Positions 16,575-39,762 of a stretch of 48,034 nucleotides of DNA are shown piece by piece. The translations under genes and the position numbers were made by a program. Every line of letters begins with the position of its first letter. The first letter of the stretch is position 1. The stretch comes from an uncultured Candidatus Saccharibacteria bacterium (lineage in GTDB: Bacteria; Patescibacteriota; Saccharimonadia; Saccharimonadales; Saccharimonadaceae), in NCBI GenBank assembly GCA_948435375.1, contig CAOJGQ010000006.1, forward strand, positions 1-48,034, in the 5' to 3' direction. Under the pieces are notes generated by a model. It was not told where the DNA came from and did not search any database. It worked only from the letters and a program-made list of their open reading frames with translations.

Positions 16575-16603
16575 TTGACAAAAATGGAAAGGTGTGCTAC
16601 AAT
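16575..16603 (+). promoter_or_regulatory. Orphan-class promoter of the SpeD-like gene
   Basis: TTGACA, 17 bases, TACAAT preceded by TGTGC. The predicted leader is about 63 bases with a small hairpin (TCTCAT/GTGAGA) and the ribosome site GAAAGGGGG. Confidence 0.8.
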
Positions 16604-16673: not shown

Positions 16674-17378
16674 ATGTTGTTCAATCACAGATGTTTCGAT
16701 CTTTATAATGCGGGCGAAGGTGACTTAGAAAGTCTACCGAAAATGCGTTCACTACTGTCTGGAGTGAACCAGCATTTCTTCGAGCGACGCGGGAATATCG
16801 AAATTATACCAGTACTTGATCGTAATGCCCCGAAGCCGATCAACAACGGTATTAGTGGTATAGTGCTGGCCAAAGCCGGTCATTTCACTTGCCATACTTT
16901 TAGCCAGCGCGACGTTGCTTTCGTAGACTACTTCTCGGCCCGTGATGATCTAATAACGGACGAGGCTGCGAGTGAAATCGAAGCCTTGCTGTCTGAGTTA
17001 TATCCGTCGGCGCGCATTGTGCCTTGCACGGAAAATCTCGGCGACGGCTTTGGCCGCCAGGTGATGATCGAATCGAAAATGTCACTCTGCCCTAAGCGAG
17101 CCTGCGCAATGATTCAGGTCATCATGCGTGAAATTGGTATGCACGAGCTTTCAGCCAGCAAGATGGTATTCGGCGAAGGTTATTATGACATCATTCAACC
17201 GATTACCGAATCGCACATTAGCATTCACCAGATCAAAGATAACACGTTGTATATCGACGTCTTCTCTTGCCGTGACTTTTCCATGGAATCACTAGTTGGC
17301 GTACTCGATCAGTATTTGCCAGGGTATGGCTACCGCAGCATTACGCGCGGTTTTGAATTGACAGACAAGACCTTGTGA
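16674..17378 (+). CDS. Tandem S-adenosylmethionine decarboxylase-like (SpeD) protein
   Basis: A 234-residue protein that looks like two SpeD domains in a row. The second (about residues 127-227) has TESHISIHQIKDN then IDVFSC; by comparison with Thermotoga SpeD, Glu179-Ser180 is the self-cleavage site that yields the pyruvoyl cofactor, His185 the processing histidine and Cys199 the catalytic acid. The first (about 1-120) has the same frame, GISGIVLAKAGHFTCHTF then VDYFSARD, but the Glu-Ser is Ala68-Gly69 and the Cys is Ala89, so it should not cleave. The usual HTWPE segment for AdoMet is absent in the active copy. SpeD homologues in Patescibacteria have been reported to decarboxylate arginine or ornithine instead, so substrate is open. 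No spermidine synthase is near. Monocistronic; stop is TGA. Confidence 0.75.
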   Translation: MLFNHRCFDLYNAGEGDLESLPKMRSLLSGVNQHFFERRGNIEIIPVLDRNAPKPINNGISGIVLAKAGHFTCHTFSQRDVAFVDYFSARDDLITDEAASEIEALLSELYPSARIVPCTENLGDGFGRQVMIESKMSLCPKRACAMIQVIMREIGMHELSASKMVFGEGYYDIIQPITESHISIHQIKDNTLYIDVFSCRDFSMESLVGVLDQYLPGYGYRSITRGFELTDKTL

Positions 17379-17417
17379 GCTGGGCCTATCAGAAACTCAG
17401 TGTCAGGTTTGCAGAAT

Positions 17418-17449
17418 ATCTCTCGACTATTATTGGTCGGGAGATTTTT
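17418..17449 (+). terminator. Terminator of the SpeD-like gene
   Basis: ATCTCTCGAC pairs with GTCGGGAGAT (one T-G pair) around eight bases, then TTTTC. Confidence 0.85.
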
Positions 17450-17556
17450 CTTGCTACAACCAGCCCAAAAGTCGCCGGTGTCTTAAAGGGCTCTCAAAAA
17501 ACCAAGCGACTGTCATTCATAAAATCGCCCCGACTTGCCCAGCCCGATTTTCACTC

Positions 17557-17585
17557 TTTACAACTCAAAAATTATTCGTTATTAT
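17557..17585 (+). promoter_or_regulatory. Promoter of tuf
   Basis: TTTACA, 17 bases, TATTAT, giving a leader of about 60 bases. A nearby TATATAA is an alternative -10. Confidence 0.5.
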
Positions 17586-17596
17586 ATAAGAGTAGA

Positions 17597-17636
17597 GTCG
17601 GAGCTGGTTATTATTAGTGCACCGACAAGATAATAA
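17597..17636 (+). other. Possible H-type pseudoknot in the tuf leader
   Basis: Two complementary pairs interleave: GTCGG (17597-17601) with CCGAC (17622-17626), and TTATTAT (17608-17614) with ATAATAA (17630-17636). The order a-b-a'-b' is a pseudoknot topology ending four bases before the ribosome site AAGGAG. The stems are short and the second is all A-T, so chance is possible. Confidence 0.35.
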
Positions 17637-17651
17637 TTAAAAGGAGAAAGA

Positions 17652-18836
<1,185 letters not shown>

Positions 18837-35981: not shown

Positions 35982-36401
35982 ATGTGGCCATCATTAGTTT
36001 TCTTAGTTATTGCAATTGTCGCGGTTGGTCTTTTGATGCTGGTCGCTATTGCGCTTACCGGCAAGCGCAGTCATACTTTTAACGTTGAAGAGTATCAAAC
36101 CCGCTGGCTCAAAGTCGAGAATGGTCTCGTACGAGATGATCCGCGCAGTTATAGTCTCTCCGTGATTCAAGCCGACAAATTGCTTGATAAAGCACTCAAT
36201 GAAATGGGACTGCCTGGCAAAACGATGGGCGAGAGACTGAAGCGTGTCTCTGACCGTTTTGAAAAACCGAATGCGGTATGGTCTGCTCATCGTATTCGCA
36301 ACCAAATTGCTCACGAACATGATTTTGATGTTGATTATGCTCAGGCTAGCCGAGCACTAGCCGCCTTTAAACAAGCTCTGAAAGATTTAGGAGCCATCTA
36401 A
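35982..36401 (+). CDS. Membrane-anchored HEPN-like protein in the gat operon
   Basis: A 139-residue protein. One N-terminal transmembrane helix (about residues 4-26) is followed by a cytosolic helical domain. Near its end is SAHRIRNQIAHEHDF: Arg106 and His111 form an Rx4H motif with a following acidic residue, as in HEPN domains, many of which are RNases. In addition the repeated helices (AVWSAHRIRN, QASRALAAFKQALKDL) fit the HEPN helical bundle. It lies three bases after gatA and its stop is directly followed by the gatB ATG, so it is made together with the amidotransferase. A tRNA-related role is attractive but unproven; many HEPN domains are non-catalytic. ATP- or nucleic-acid-binding motifs are absent. 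Confidence 0.6.
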   Translation: MWPSLVFLVIAIVAVGLLMLVAIALTGKRSHTFNVEEYQTRWLKVENGLVRDDPRSYSLSVIQADKLLDKALNEMGLPGKTMGERLKRVSDRFEKPNAVWSAHRIRNQIAHEHDFDVDYAQASRALAAFKQALKDLGAI

Positions 36402-37823
36402 ATGACCAAAGAATATCTCCCTACCATCGGTATCGAATGTCACGTCCAGCTTTGCACCAAAACAAAATTATTTTCTGAAGTTGATAACGACGCCCGCCTC
36501 AAAGAGCCTAACTCTTGCGTATCGCCGGTTGACTATGCTTTGCCAGGCATGCTACCAAGGCTTAACTCCGAGGCGATTCGGCTTTCAGTGTTGGCCGGGT
36601 TCGCCCTCAACGCCGAGATTAATCTCGAATCACGCTTTGATCGTAAGCACTATTTTTACCCTGATCTGCCCAAAGGTTACCAAATCACTCAGATGTATCA
36701 TCCGATTATTGGTGCTGGCTATGTCGAGCTGCCGAGCGGTCAAAAAGTCCGCATTGAACATGCTCACCTCGAGGAGGACGCTGGCAAACTAAGTCACGAA
36801 GCGAGTTATAGCTTGGTTGACCTCAATCGTGCCGGTACGCCCTTGGTCGAAATTGTCTCCCAGCCCGACATGCATTCTGCTGCCGAGGCGCGCGAATATA
36901 CGAAGGAGCTTTGGCGTGTGATGACTTATGCAGGCGTGACTTTTGGCGATCTTTATAATGGCAACATGCGCTTCGACGTTAATATTAGTGTTGCTGAGAC
37001 CGGCAGCGACCAACTTGGCACGCGTACCGAAGTGAAAAACCTCAATTCTTTCCGCAATGTTGAACGAGTAGTGGAATACGAGGTAAAACGCCAGATTGAG
37101 CTGCTTGAAAAAGGTGAAAAAGTTATCCAAGAAACTCGCGGCTGGAATGATGCTACCGGCGAAACAACTGGTCAGCGCAGCAAGGAAGAGGCAGCTGATT
37201 ATCGTTATATGCCCGAGCCGGATATCCCGCCCGTTCGCTTGACGGAGGCCGAGATTAACGAGATGCGTGCTGAGTTTCCTAAGATGCCAAAAGATTATCG
37301 TGCCGACCTGACTACCGTAATCGGTGCAGGACAAACCGAAACCTTGCTTGATTATCAGCCGCTGGTGCAGAAACTTGATGAGCTGGGTGACACCAAAGCT
37401 GTGAAAAAAATCGCCAACTTGTTTTCATCAGTTCTTTTGGCCGAAGAAAACACCAGCCTGCTCAATGATGAATTGCCCAGCAAAGAACAGCTGCTCGAGC
37501 TTGTCAGAATGAATGATAATAAAGAACTTTCTAGTACGGCGACGAAAGAAGTTTTTCTCAAATTCTTTGATCCGGAAATGCATTATAAAGACACTTTGAC
37601 TATCGCGAAAGAACTCGGTGTCCTACAGGAAAATGATCTTGGCGCGCTCGAAGCGATTGTTGACGCCGTGCTCGCGCAACCCGCAACAAAGCAGGCTCAA
37701 GACGATTTTCGTAGTGGTCAAGAAAAAGTCCTCGGCTTCCTGGTTGGCCAAGTAATGAAAGAGTCCAAAGGCAAGGCTAACCCAAGCGCCGTCCAAGATA
37801 TTCTGCGAAAGAAGTTGCAATAA
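36402..37823 (+). CDS. gatB: Amidotransferase subunit B
   Basis: A 473-residue GatB, the kinase/transamidase subunit. It begins with LPTIGIECHVQL, and contains NRAGTPLVEIVSQPDM, DVNISVAETG and EVKNLNSFRNVERVVEYE, all typical of GatB, and a C-terminal tail domain (YqeY-like, about the last 150 residues) that contacts tRNA. The start codon follows the previous stop without any gap; TTTAGGAG lies upstream. The stop overlaps the helicase start as TAATG. GatCAB implies that Asn-tRNA and/or Gln-tRNA is made indirectly in this organism. Confidence 0.97.
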   Translation: MTKEYLPTIGIECHVQLCTKTKLFSEVDNDARLKEPNSCVSPVDYALPGMLPRLNSEAIRLSVLAGFALNAEINLESRFDRKHYFYPDLPKGYQITQMYHPIIGAGYVELPSGQKVRIEHAHLEEDAGKLSHEASYSLVDLNRAGTPLVEIVSQPDMHSAAEAREYTKELWRVMTYAGVTFGDLYNGNMRFDVNISVAETGSDQLGTRTEVKNLNSFRNVERVVEYEVKRQIELLEKGEKVIQETRGWNDATGETTGQRSKEEAADYRYMPEPDIPPVRLTEAEINEMRAEFPKMPKDYRADLTTVIGAGQTETLLDYQPLVQKLDELGDTKAVKKIANLFSSVLLAEENTSLLNDELPSKEQLLELVRMNDNKELSSTATKEVFLKFFDPEMHYKDTLTIAKELGVLQENDLGALEAIVDAVLAQPATKQAQDDFRSGQEKVLGFLVGQVMKESKGKANPSAVQDILRKKLQ

Positions 37824-39493
37824 TGTCGACGAGCGGGAGCCGCAAAGCTCCCGCCTCCAAAAATGCTCATGGCATTTCGGCGGTCCAATCATGGTTCGAG
37901 CAACACGTCAAGCTTGACGGCAAACCATATTTCTTGGATCAAGACCAGGCCCGAGCCGTTACGGATTTACATAAAAACACACTCGTAACGGCTCGGGCCG
38001 GCTCCGGCAAAACCCGCGTTATCGTCGCCAAAGTCGTTTACCTTATTAGCCAGCTCCACTACTCCCCAAGCGAAATTGCGGTTTTCATGTTTAACCGCAC
38101 TGCCGCCGCCGAAGTCAACGAGCGTATCGCGGCAGTCGAAATTGACGGCCATCCGCTTATTAGCACCAACGCCGCCCCACCCACTCTCGCCTCGACTTTT
38201 CATAAATTCGCTCTCACCACCGTGCAGGAAAGTGGCCTGCGTCCAGAGATTATTTCCGACGCTACGCAGCAAAACCTGCTTAATAATCTACTGCGCGAAG
38301 TCACGGCCGACCAATACCACTTTTCGCCTCGTGTCTACCAAGATTTAACCAAGCTAACAGCGGGTTTCATTACTCGTGCCGGTCAAAAATACCCCGGGTC
38401 AGCCGGCCTAGCCCAGCTCACGGCTGCGACTAACGCCTATCTCAGAAAATATCAATCCTCGCCCGACAAACGTTTCTTCTGCCAGGTCCACCGCATTGCC
38501 CTGGAAGTTTACACGAAATATCTGCAGAGCCTGAAGTCACCGTTACTTGATTTCAATTTATTGATGGCTCGCGCCGCTGAGCTGCTTAAAAACGTTCACC
38601 CTAACCCGCGCGTTGAACGTCTGAAATATCTCATGGTGGACGAATATCAGGATTTTTCCGACCTCTTTTATAATCTGATTTTGGCGATTCGCTCGCATTG
38701 CCCGGGCGCCAAGCTTTTTGCCGTGGGCGACGATTGGCAGGCGATTAACCGCTTTGCTGGTTCGGACGTCAATTATTTTCTTAGTTTCCCGACTTACTTT
38801 CCCGAGGACTCGACCAGCATCCCACTTGCCACCAACTATCGCAGTTGTCGCCGCATTGTCGAAAACGCCAATCGCTATATGCTGACCCACTACGATCCCA
38901 CGGCGCTCCCCGCCAAGGCTCATAATCGTAAATCTGGAAAAATCTACCATGCGAACCCTGAGCGCCTCCGTTTTGACGCCCGCGACAGCCTCGAAGATGG
39001 CCTGGGCGACGGGCTATATCAAACAATTTTGGCCGGAACTATGCAACTCCCCAGCCCTAGCAAAGTGCCACCAAGCGCCGCCAGGCTCCTCAAGCAGCTC
39101 ACCAAAATTTGCCACAAGCATTCCGGCCAGTCGATTATGCTGCTCCATCGCCACAATTTCACCAGCTTAAACGGTTTAACGCTCGAAGTATTGGCGCATG
39201 CACTAGAAAAGGCTCTCATCAGCCAGTCGATTATGACGCCGGATGATTTTGCCCGTAACGTCCGCTTTCTCACCATGCACCGCTCGAAAGGTCTCGAGGC
39301 AGCTGTGGTAATTATTCTTGAGGCTGACGCTGATATTATTGCTAGCGCCCACCCACACGCCACGATCTTTGAGATTTTCGGTGATACCCGTGCCGCCGAA
39401 ATCGCCGACCAGCAGCGTCTGCTCTACGTTGCCATGACCCGCGCGAAGGAGCGCCTCTATATCCTGAGCAGCGATCCGAAACCACTCATCTAG
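37823..39493 (+). CDS. Short UvrD/Rep-family SF1 helicase
   Basis: A 556-residue superfamily 1A helicase. Motif I is ARAGSGKT, Ia FMFNRTAAAEV, II MVDEYQDF, III GDDWQAINRFAGSD, IV TNYRS, V FLTMHRSKGLEAAVV and VI LLYVAMTRAKERL. UvrD and Rep are about 680-720 residues, so roughly 130 residues are missing, mainly from the 2B region. It is coupled to gatB by a TAATG overlap. The gene carries two strong inverted repeats near its 5' end, one of them a perfect 16-bp repeat spanning the codons before motif I. It could unwind DNA in repair or replication restart; no partner is apparent in the neighbourhood. Confidence 0.88.
   Translation: MSTSGSRKAPASKNAHGISAVQSWFEQHVKLDGKPYFLDQDQARAVTDLHKNTLVTARAGSGKTRVIVAKVVYLISQLHYSPSEIAVFMFNRTAAAEVNERIAAVEIDGHPLISTNAAPPTLASTFHKFALTTVQESGLRPEIISDATQQNLLNNLLREVTADQYHFSPRVYQDLTKLTAGFITRAGQKYPGSAGLAQLTAATNAYLRKYQSSPDKRFFCQVHRIALEVYTKYLQSLKSPLLDFNLLMARAAELLKNVHPNPRVERLKYLMVDEYQDFSDLFYNLILAIRSHCPGAKLFAVGDDWQAINRFAGSDVNYFLSFPTYFPEDSTSIPLATNYRSCRRIVENANRYMLTHYDPTALPAKAHNRKSGKIYHANPERLRFDARDSLEDGLGDGLYQTILAGTMQLPSPSKVPPSAARLLKQLTKICHKHSGQSIMLLHRHNFTSLNGLTLEVLAHALEKALISQSIMTPDDFARNVRFLTMHRSKGLEAAVVIILEADADIIASAHPHATIFEIFGDTRAAEIADQQRLLYVAMTRAKERLYILSSDPKPLI
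37833..37854 (+). repeat. Hairpin just inside the helicase start
   Basis: GCGGGAGC pairs with GCTCCCGC around CGCAAA, covering codons 4-11. A GC stem here could slow reinitiation after gatB. Confidence 0.6.
37948..37999 (+). repeat. Perfect 16-bp inverted repeat within the helicase gene
   Basis: The arms GGCCCGAGCCGTTACG (37948-37963) and CGTAACGGCTCGGGCC (37984-37999) are exact reverse complements, separated by 20 bases. They encode QARAVT and VTARAG, the latter running into the P-loop. Confidence 0.95.
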
Positions 39494-39603
39494 CCTAAAA
39501 CCATCAAAATCACCATAGCCACCAAAATTTCTTCGAAAATCGTTCAGCGCGAACAACTGTCCGTCACAGAAGACATCATGACATGGGTGGAGAAAAGAGA
39601 ATG

Positions 39604-39619
39604 GCGGACAGGTGTCCGC
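39604..39619 (+). repeat. Palindrome upstream of fusA
   Basis: GCGGACA and TGTCCGC are separated by GG, 45 bases upstream of the fusA -10. A further TGTCCG half-site is at 39557. It may be an operator for fusA or the 3' end of the helicase transcript; there is no T run. Apart from this and the promoter, the 269-base gap 39494-39762 shows nothing else. Confidence 0.4.
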
Positions 39620-39660
39620 GAGAAAAGTTCGCATAATTTCCCCCGCTCTTTCGGGAAATA

Positions 39661-39669
39661 TGCTATAAT
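39661..39669 (+). promoter_or_regulatory. Extended -10 promoter of fusA
   Basis: TGCTATAAT with the imperfect palindrome CCCG-CTCTTT-CGGG directly upstream. A small AT hairpin CTAAAAAA/TTTTTTAG follows the start site. The leader is about 87 bases. Confidence 0.65.
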
Positions 39670-39762
39670 CTAAAAAAGTCTATTTTTTAGTGCGCAAATG
39701 TCGTGAGTGAAGGGATTACTCTGCTTTGTGTCAGATAAATTATATAAAAGGGAATCATCAAA

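Follow-up and report, generated by a model that had tools for sequence, protein, structure and literature searches.

The window, that is the whole stretch of DNA analysed here (48,034 nt of contig CAOJGQ010000006.1 from an uncultured Candidatus Saccharibacteria bacterium), carries a gene for a tandem SpeD-like proenzyme. Its features are summarised in Table 1. The upstream site is strong and sigma-70-like in a consensus scan, and a G-rich ribosome-binding stretch precedes the gene. The terminator-like hairpin on the 3’ side suggests a single-gene transcript. Upstream lie uvrB (named from sequence), a gene for an ASCH/DUF3850 protein and a short unknown gene, downstream lies the gene for EF-Tu. 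The tandem gene stands alone, no pathway gene being linked to it within the window. An EF-Tu gene is found near the tandem gene both in the window (16674-18836) and in a relative from Clostridia (L032, 2251-5061). Orientation and intervening genes differ between the two arrangements and the common proximity is probably a coincidence.

Table 1. Features of the tandem gene and its flanks in window coordinates. Residue counts refer to 25 tandem proteins.
Feature	Position	Strand	Evidence and conservation
Promoter-like site	16575..16603	+	TTGACA, 17 nt, extended TG, TACAAT; 11/12 in consensus scan; consensus match only
Tandem SpeD-like proenzyme gene	16674..17378	+	ORF, 234 aa plus stop; PF02675 in both halves; AF2 model
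N-terminal SpeD half, partner half of the proposed composite site	16674..17042	+	residues 1-123; PF02675 29.8 bits
Ser61 codon (= T. maritima Ser55 / human Ser229)	16854..16856	+	Ser in 25/25
Ala68-Gly69, former N-half Glu-Ser cleavage pair	16875..16880	+	Glu lost in 25/25, Ser lost in 23/25
His74 codon (= T. maritima His68 / human His243)	16893..16895	+	His in 25/25
Ala89, former N-half catalytic Cys (T. maritima Cys83)	16938..16940	+	Cys in 1/25 only
C-terminal SpeD half, pyruvoyl half	17043..17375	+	residues 124-234; PF02675 29.6 bits
Asp172, in place of the C-half Ser55 equivalent	17187..17189	+	Asp 8/25, Ala 1, Arg 1, Ser/Thr 15
Glu179-Ser180, predicted self-cleavage site	17208..17213	+	Ser 25/25, Glu/Gln 25/25
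His185 (C-half His68 equivalent)	17226..17228	+	His 24/25; Thr in L147
Cys199, catalytic Cys (T. maritima Cys83 / human Cys82)	17268..17270	+	25/25
Intrinsic-terminator-like hairpin	17418..17445	+	3’ of the tandem gene; 12 pairs, T-rich tail

The initial annotation had described two SpeD-like halves within the 234 residues. Indeed, PF02675 (AdoMet_dc) matches residues ~9-104 and ~146-216 separately, and both halves exceed the curated cut-off of 25 bits for membership in the SpeD-like superfamily (57 bits for the whole protein). The structure was predicted with AlphaFold2 using an alignment of the query and ten tandem homologues. The resulting model has a mean pLDDT of 89.2 and a pTM of 0.88. 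The succession of strands and helices occurs twice, with the second half beginning near residue 124-127.

Using VIA-align, the best match of the model is the human AdoMetDC proenzyme (1msv, Z 12.3, rmsd 3.4, 194 residues), and it spans both halves (model residues 2-231). As had been anticipated, each half also matches the SpeD of Thermotoga maritima: model residues 1-137 of the N-half side align with 1tlu (113 residues, Z 11.8), and residues 124-231 of the C-half with 1tmi (107 residues, Z 11.7). The N-half moreover aligns with the C-terminal half of human AdoMetDC (residues 172-322). Unrelated rows reach a Z of ~8 and below, with the exception of human spermine synthase (Z 9.4-10.1). The top match in Foldseek is again T. 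maritima SpeD. The model thus predicts a SpeD-type fold for both halves, including residues 1-120.

In the numbering of T. maritima, Ser55, Glu62, Ser63, His68 and Cys83 correspond to Ser61, Ala68, Gly69, His74 and Ala89 in the N-half and to Asp172, Glu179, Ser180, His185 and Cys199 in the C-half. All residues named in the initial annotation were assigned correctly. Retention was counted in 25 tandem proteins from the genus of the window and from gut Bacillota, most of which are only ~24-33% identical to the query; the duplication is hence conserved among homologues. The pyruvoyl serine and the catalytic cysteine are found in every C-half and Glu or Gln always precedes the serine, which agrees with the proposed polarity opposite to that of the eukaryotic enzyme. 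The view of a dead N-half holds for the cleavage pair and for the cysteine, but not for Ser61, which had been overlooked, and His74, both of which are invariant.

In human AdoMetDC, the pyruvoyl group arises from Ser68 of the first half in two steps that depend on Ser229 and His243 of the second half: Ser229 is required for processing, while His243 acts in the second step (PMC3975893). T. maritima Ser55 corresponds to human Ser229, although the S55A variant of the T. maritima enzyme is still processed (PMC3975893). The N-half of the tandem protein retains Ser and His and the C-half Glu-Ser-Cys, as in the human enzyme with the halves swapped. Such a pattern of kept and lost residues is what one composite site would leave behind. 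Judged by its sequence, the N-half is not simply dead but retains exactly the two residues which the non-catalytic half supplies in human AdoMetDC. Invariance of this Ser and His in 25 divergent proteins, together with the SpeD-type fold of both AF2 halves, argues for a pattern beyond chance. By analogy to the SpeD family, Ser180 is predicted to become the pyruvoyl group, resulting in chains of residues 1-179 and 180-234.

The C-half has lost its own Ser55 equivalent in 10/25 tandem proteins. In L147 it lacks the equivalents of both Ser55 and His68, while the N-half retains both. His185 is nearly invariant and is not by itself required by a composite site. Among the tandem proteins from Bacilli (L039-L041, L135-L147), nearly all N-halves show Gly-Gly in place of Glu-Ser, and in several C-halves Gln takes the place of the Glu that precedes the pyruvoyl Ser.

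When 393 genomes of the class were searched with the Pfam model, three further tandem genes emerged, all in the genus of the window (G333, G335 and G404), and by profile search the tandem occurs in 4/174 genomes of this genus. The gene of G404 is broken across contig ends (L021 on C11, L027 on C12), and both ends share VYDVMN. A single-sequence search of the window's order returned the window itself and no other match. A scan of named genomes revealed tandem genes in gut members of Clostridia and Bacilli (L032-L036) as well as in further Bacilli (L039-L041). When the order of L040 was searched, 16/279 genomes had the tandem. A phage or plasmid as carrier finds no support, as no relative was found in the phages, plasmids and viral contigs searched.

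In the tree, the tandem N-halves cluster in one clade (support 99/96), in agreement with a single fusion. Copies from Saccharibacteria join the gut Bacillota copies L032-L036 (100/98). They have long branches, and the test of whether they form a single clade gives an AU p of 0.175. The nearest sequence relatives of the tandem halves are bacterial single-domain proteins. SpeDC-like single-domain rows form a clade separate from both halves. The T. maritima SpeD row agrees with the PDB alignment in its central part. The G+C content of the tandem gene (0.48) fits its own window (0.49) and not the AT-rich Bacillota (0.25-0.31), so that any transfer would be old or in the opposite direction. The fusion proposed initially is real, but it is not a lone case: it belongs to a family common to Saccharibacteria and gut Bacillota. 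Given the opposite polarity, it is likely independent of the published SpeD-SpeDC fusions.

Single-domain SpeD-like proteins are also present in Saccharimonadia. Contig C3 of G173 harbours two of them (L007 and L025) with the motifs AESH..IHTWPE and PEAH..ARTWPE, the latter without the cleavage Ser and His. This live/dead pair of separate genes recalls the AdoMetDC-prozyme pair of trypanosomes. L014 in G231 is a second dead single-domain copy. A further family comprises L016, L018, L019, L020, L022 and L023, most of which show WETSGAHFYAW for SESHLTIHTW, with Tyr at the position of His68.

Evidence for the substrate comes from gene neighbours and gene content. In 8 of the 16 genomes of the Bacilli group with the tandem, an agmatinase-type ureohydrolase is located directly upstream on the same strand. 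Three of these eight were scored and fit agmatinase best (TIGR01230, 150-185 bits, vs 95-117 bits for arginase), although two of the three stay below the agmatinase equivalog cut-off. The nearest single-domain relatives adjoin an agmatinase-type gene in 39/61 loci, and some adjoin homologues of deoxyhypusine synthase (DHS). The same neighbours, speB and speY, make up the speDA arrangement described in PMC10407285.

Every one of the nine genomes in the window's group, the window's own among them (TIGR03380, 523 bits), has agmatine deiminase, compared with 0/3 Bacilli genomes having agmatinase beside the tandem. An agmatine-consuming enzyme in the genome or operon, a trait of SpeDA, is hence present in both groups. 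In 8/9 genomes of the window's group the deiminase is part of a cluster with putrescine carbamoyltransferase and an antiporter. In the window's genome this cluster (L160) is located on contig C4 at about 35994-39675, and its partners are a carbamoyltransferase that most resembles the putrescine type and a permease resembling amino-acid/amine antiporters. Carbamate kinase was not found on this contig; it lies beside the agmatine deiminase cluster in two members of the genus without the tandem (G075 and G121). The same three genes are also clustered at L161-L163 and L169-L171 in Saccharibacteria of the window's genus, some with carbamate kinase. Within the window's group the tandem gene is unlinked to the cluster except at L032. 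There aguA lacks its 5’ end, the truncation falling exactly on the start of the tandem gene; a misassembly may have created this junction, and the adjacency is given no weight here. Of four sampled genomes of the genus without the tandem, three have the cluster as well. Co-occurrence in this genus is therefore weakly informative, and the tandem would add an internal source of agmatine rather than define the pathway.

No spermidine synthase (PF01564) match above the cut-off was obtained in the window's genome (MAG completeness 91%) or in 11 other tandem genomes, and neither a DHS/SpeY homologue nor a PLP decarboxylase of the OKR type was found in these 12 genomes. This argues against a role in AdoMet-derived polyamines, and synthesis of homospermidine via SpeY was rejected because no DHS homologue was found in the 12 genomes. 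The earlier statement that no polyamine synthase lies nearby is correct for the surroundings and extends to SpeE- and SpeY-type homologues genome-wide. The host- or amine-related role suggested initially can be narrowed, by gene neighbours and content, to decarboxylation of arginine to agmatine. L-arginine is thus the most likely substrate, and agmatine the product.

The main rival shares the fused composite-site enzyme but assumes a SpeDC-like ornithine decarboxylase generating putrescine directly. It draws on Gln175 of the C-half, which is conserved in groups 1 and 2 and occupies the first position that PMC10407285 treats as SpeDC-diagnostic (1-Gln), on Tyr193 of the query at the place of 4-Tyr, and on the pairing of SpeD with SpeDC in the fusions of the same paper. 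However, 2-Thr and 3-Phe are replaced by Glu179 and by the Gln after His185, so that two of the four signature residues fit, the positions having been placed by alignment with SpeDC-like proteins and not from the published figure. Since the neighbouring ureohydrolase moreover fits agmatinase rather than arginase, and the SpeDC-like single-domain proteins branch apart from both tandem halves, we regard ornithine as an unlikely substrate, if still one to be taken seriously. Far less probable is a true AdoMet decarboxylase serving the synthesis of spermidine, despite the family name, the Pfam and TIGR models and the fold. The score of 39.3 bits misses the TIGR03330 equivalog cut-off of 75.65 bits, and the His-Thr-Trp-Pro-Glu stretch of AdoMet decarboxylases reads His-Thr-Phe-Ser-Gln in the N-half and His-Gln-Ile-Lys-Asp in the C-half. 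As no spermidine synthase above the cut-off was found in the 12 genomes searched, this identity was rejected as highly improbable. Ser77 of the N-half stands at the assumed position of the Pro which AdoMetDC conserves and SpeDA has lost.

Decarboxylation of another amino acid or amine precursor, serving export or signalling instead of agmatine catabolism, would suit a single-gene transcript unit without a linked pathway gene in the window, as well as the sparse distribution of a fast-evolving gene within the genus. In the other two groups, however, the association with agmatine-consuming enzymes is conserved, which speaks against this reading, and we consider it rather improbable. The loss of cleavage residues from one half and the long branches of the Saccharibacterial copies could also indicate a degenerate or regulatory pseudoenzyme without catalysis. 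Yet the cleavage Ser, the Cys and both partner residues are invariant in 25 divergent proteins, and the ORF is intact and equipped with signals for expression and termination; such a pseudoenzyme is very improbable.

The best explanation, which we hold to be reasonably probable, is a fused pyruvoyl-dependent arginine decarboxylase of reverse polarity with a composite site that feeds agmatine catabolism, based on predicted fold, residue pattern, gene neighbours and gene content. The two SpeD halves of this self-cleaving enzyme would pack face to face like the SpeD dimer and keep a single active site. The C-half would provide Glu179-Ser180, cleaved to leave the pyruvoyl group at 180, and Cys199. 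The N-half would contribute Ser61 and His74 to the same site, like the C-terminal half of human AdoMetDC. Agmatine generated from L-arginine would be taken over by the cluster on contig C4 with its agmatine deiminase, putrescine carbamoyltransferase and antiporter-like permease. Arginine from host or gut could thereby be converted to putrescine, ammonia and ATP, the carbamate kinase for the ATP step not being located on C4. Cleavage, composite geometry, substrate and flux are all inferred. A wider proposition receives slightly less than even chances from us: bacterial fusions of reverse polarity would have reached a shared composite site in parallel to eukaryotic AdoMetDC and act as arginine decarboxylases, and Saccharibacteria acquiring the enzyme would be able to feed the ATP-yielding agmatine deiminase pathway with arginine itself.

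Loss of the N-half site in SpeD fusions was not found described in the literature; the accessible part of PMC10407285 reports loss in the C-half. We also found no mention of SpeD fusions in Saccharibacteria or gut Bacilli and no report of the agmatine deiminase pathway in Saccharibacteria. The tandem family indicates that the opposite half can lose its site, unlike in the bacterial fusions used to argue for the origin of eukaryotic AdoMetDC, and it suggests what survives when one of two sites dies, namely the two residues reaching across the interface. The composite site becomes testable by point changes in a small protein. Moreover, a route from arginine via agmatine to ATP is indicated for gut Saccharibacteria, whose metabolism is very reduced.

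Compared with known systems, each half resembles the class 1b SpeD of T. maritima in its fold, and the C-half also in the Glu-Ser cleavage motif, the His and the Cys. The present protein differs by being a fused tandem in which one site is lost, the HTWPE stretch is missing and no spermidine synthase was found in the genome. Eukaryotic AdoMetDC is a fusion of two bacterial half sandwiches (PMC5201418). With this class 2 enzyme (human, potato) the tandem would share the duplicated alpha-beta-beta-alpha fold, as predicted by the model, one pyruvoyl site, as judged by the residue pattern, and seemingly a partner half supplying Ser and His. In contrast, the pyruvoyl half is N-terminal there and C-terminal here, Glu-Ser being confined to the C-half; an AdoMet context is missing, and by sequence the tandem is closest to single-domain proteins of bacteria.

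SpeD-SpeDC fusions are described for Omnitrophota, Desulfobacteria and Lentisphaerota, some with two sites and, in Lentisphaerota and Desulfobacteria, versions with a degraded C-half; together they are put forward to explain how eukaryotic AdoMetDC originated (Li et al. 2023, PMC10407285). Like the tandem, they unite two SpeD homologues in one bacterial protein, in which one half may be degraded, but they combine a bona fide AdoMetDC N-half with an ODC or degraded C-half and the gene lies by speE. The tandem lacks Glu-Ser and Cys in the N-half and has agmatine enzymes instead of a speE, which was not found. The pyruvoyl arginine decarboxylase SpeDA (Marinimicrobia/Capsulimonas type) shares the likely substrate and the speB and speY neighbours of the nearest single-domain relatives, but is itself single-domain, whereas the tandem is fused with presumably one composite site. 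Finally, the AdoMetDC-prozyme pair of Trypanosoma is similar in that a live enzyme needs a catalytically dead homologue, but the prozyme is a separate protein and an allosteric activator (PMC5201418). In the tandem the partner forms part of the same chain, and the conserved Ser and His of this half suggest a direct part in the chemistry.
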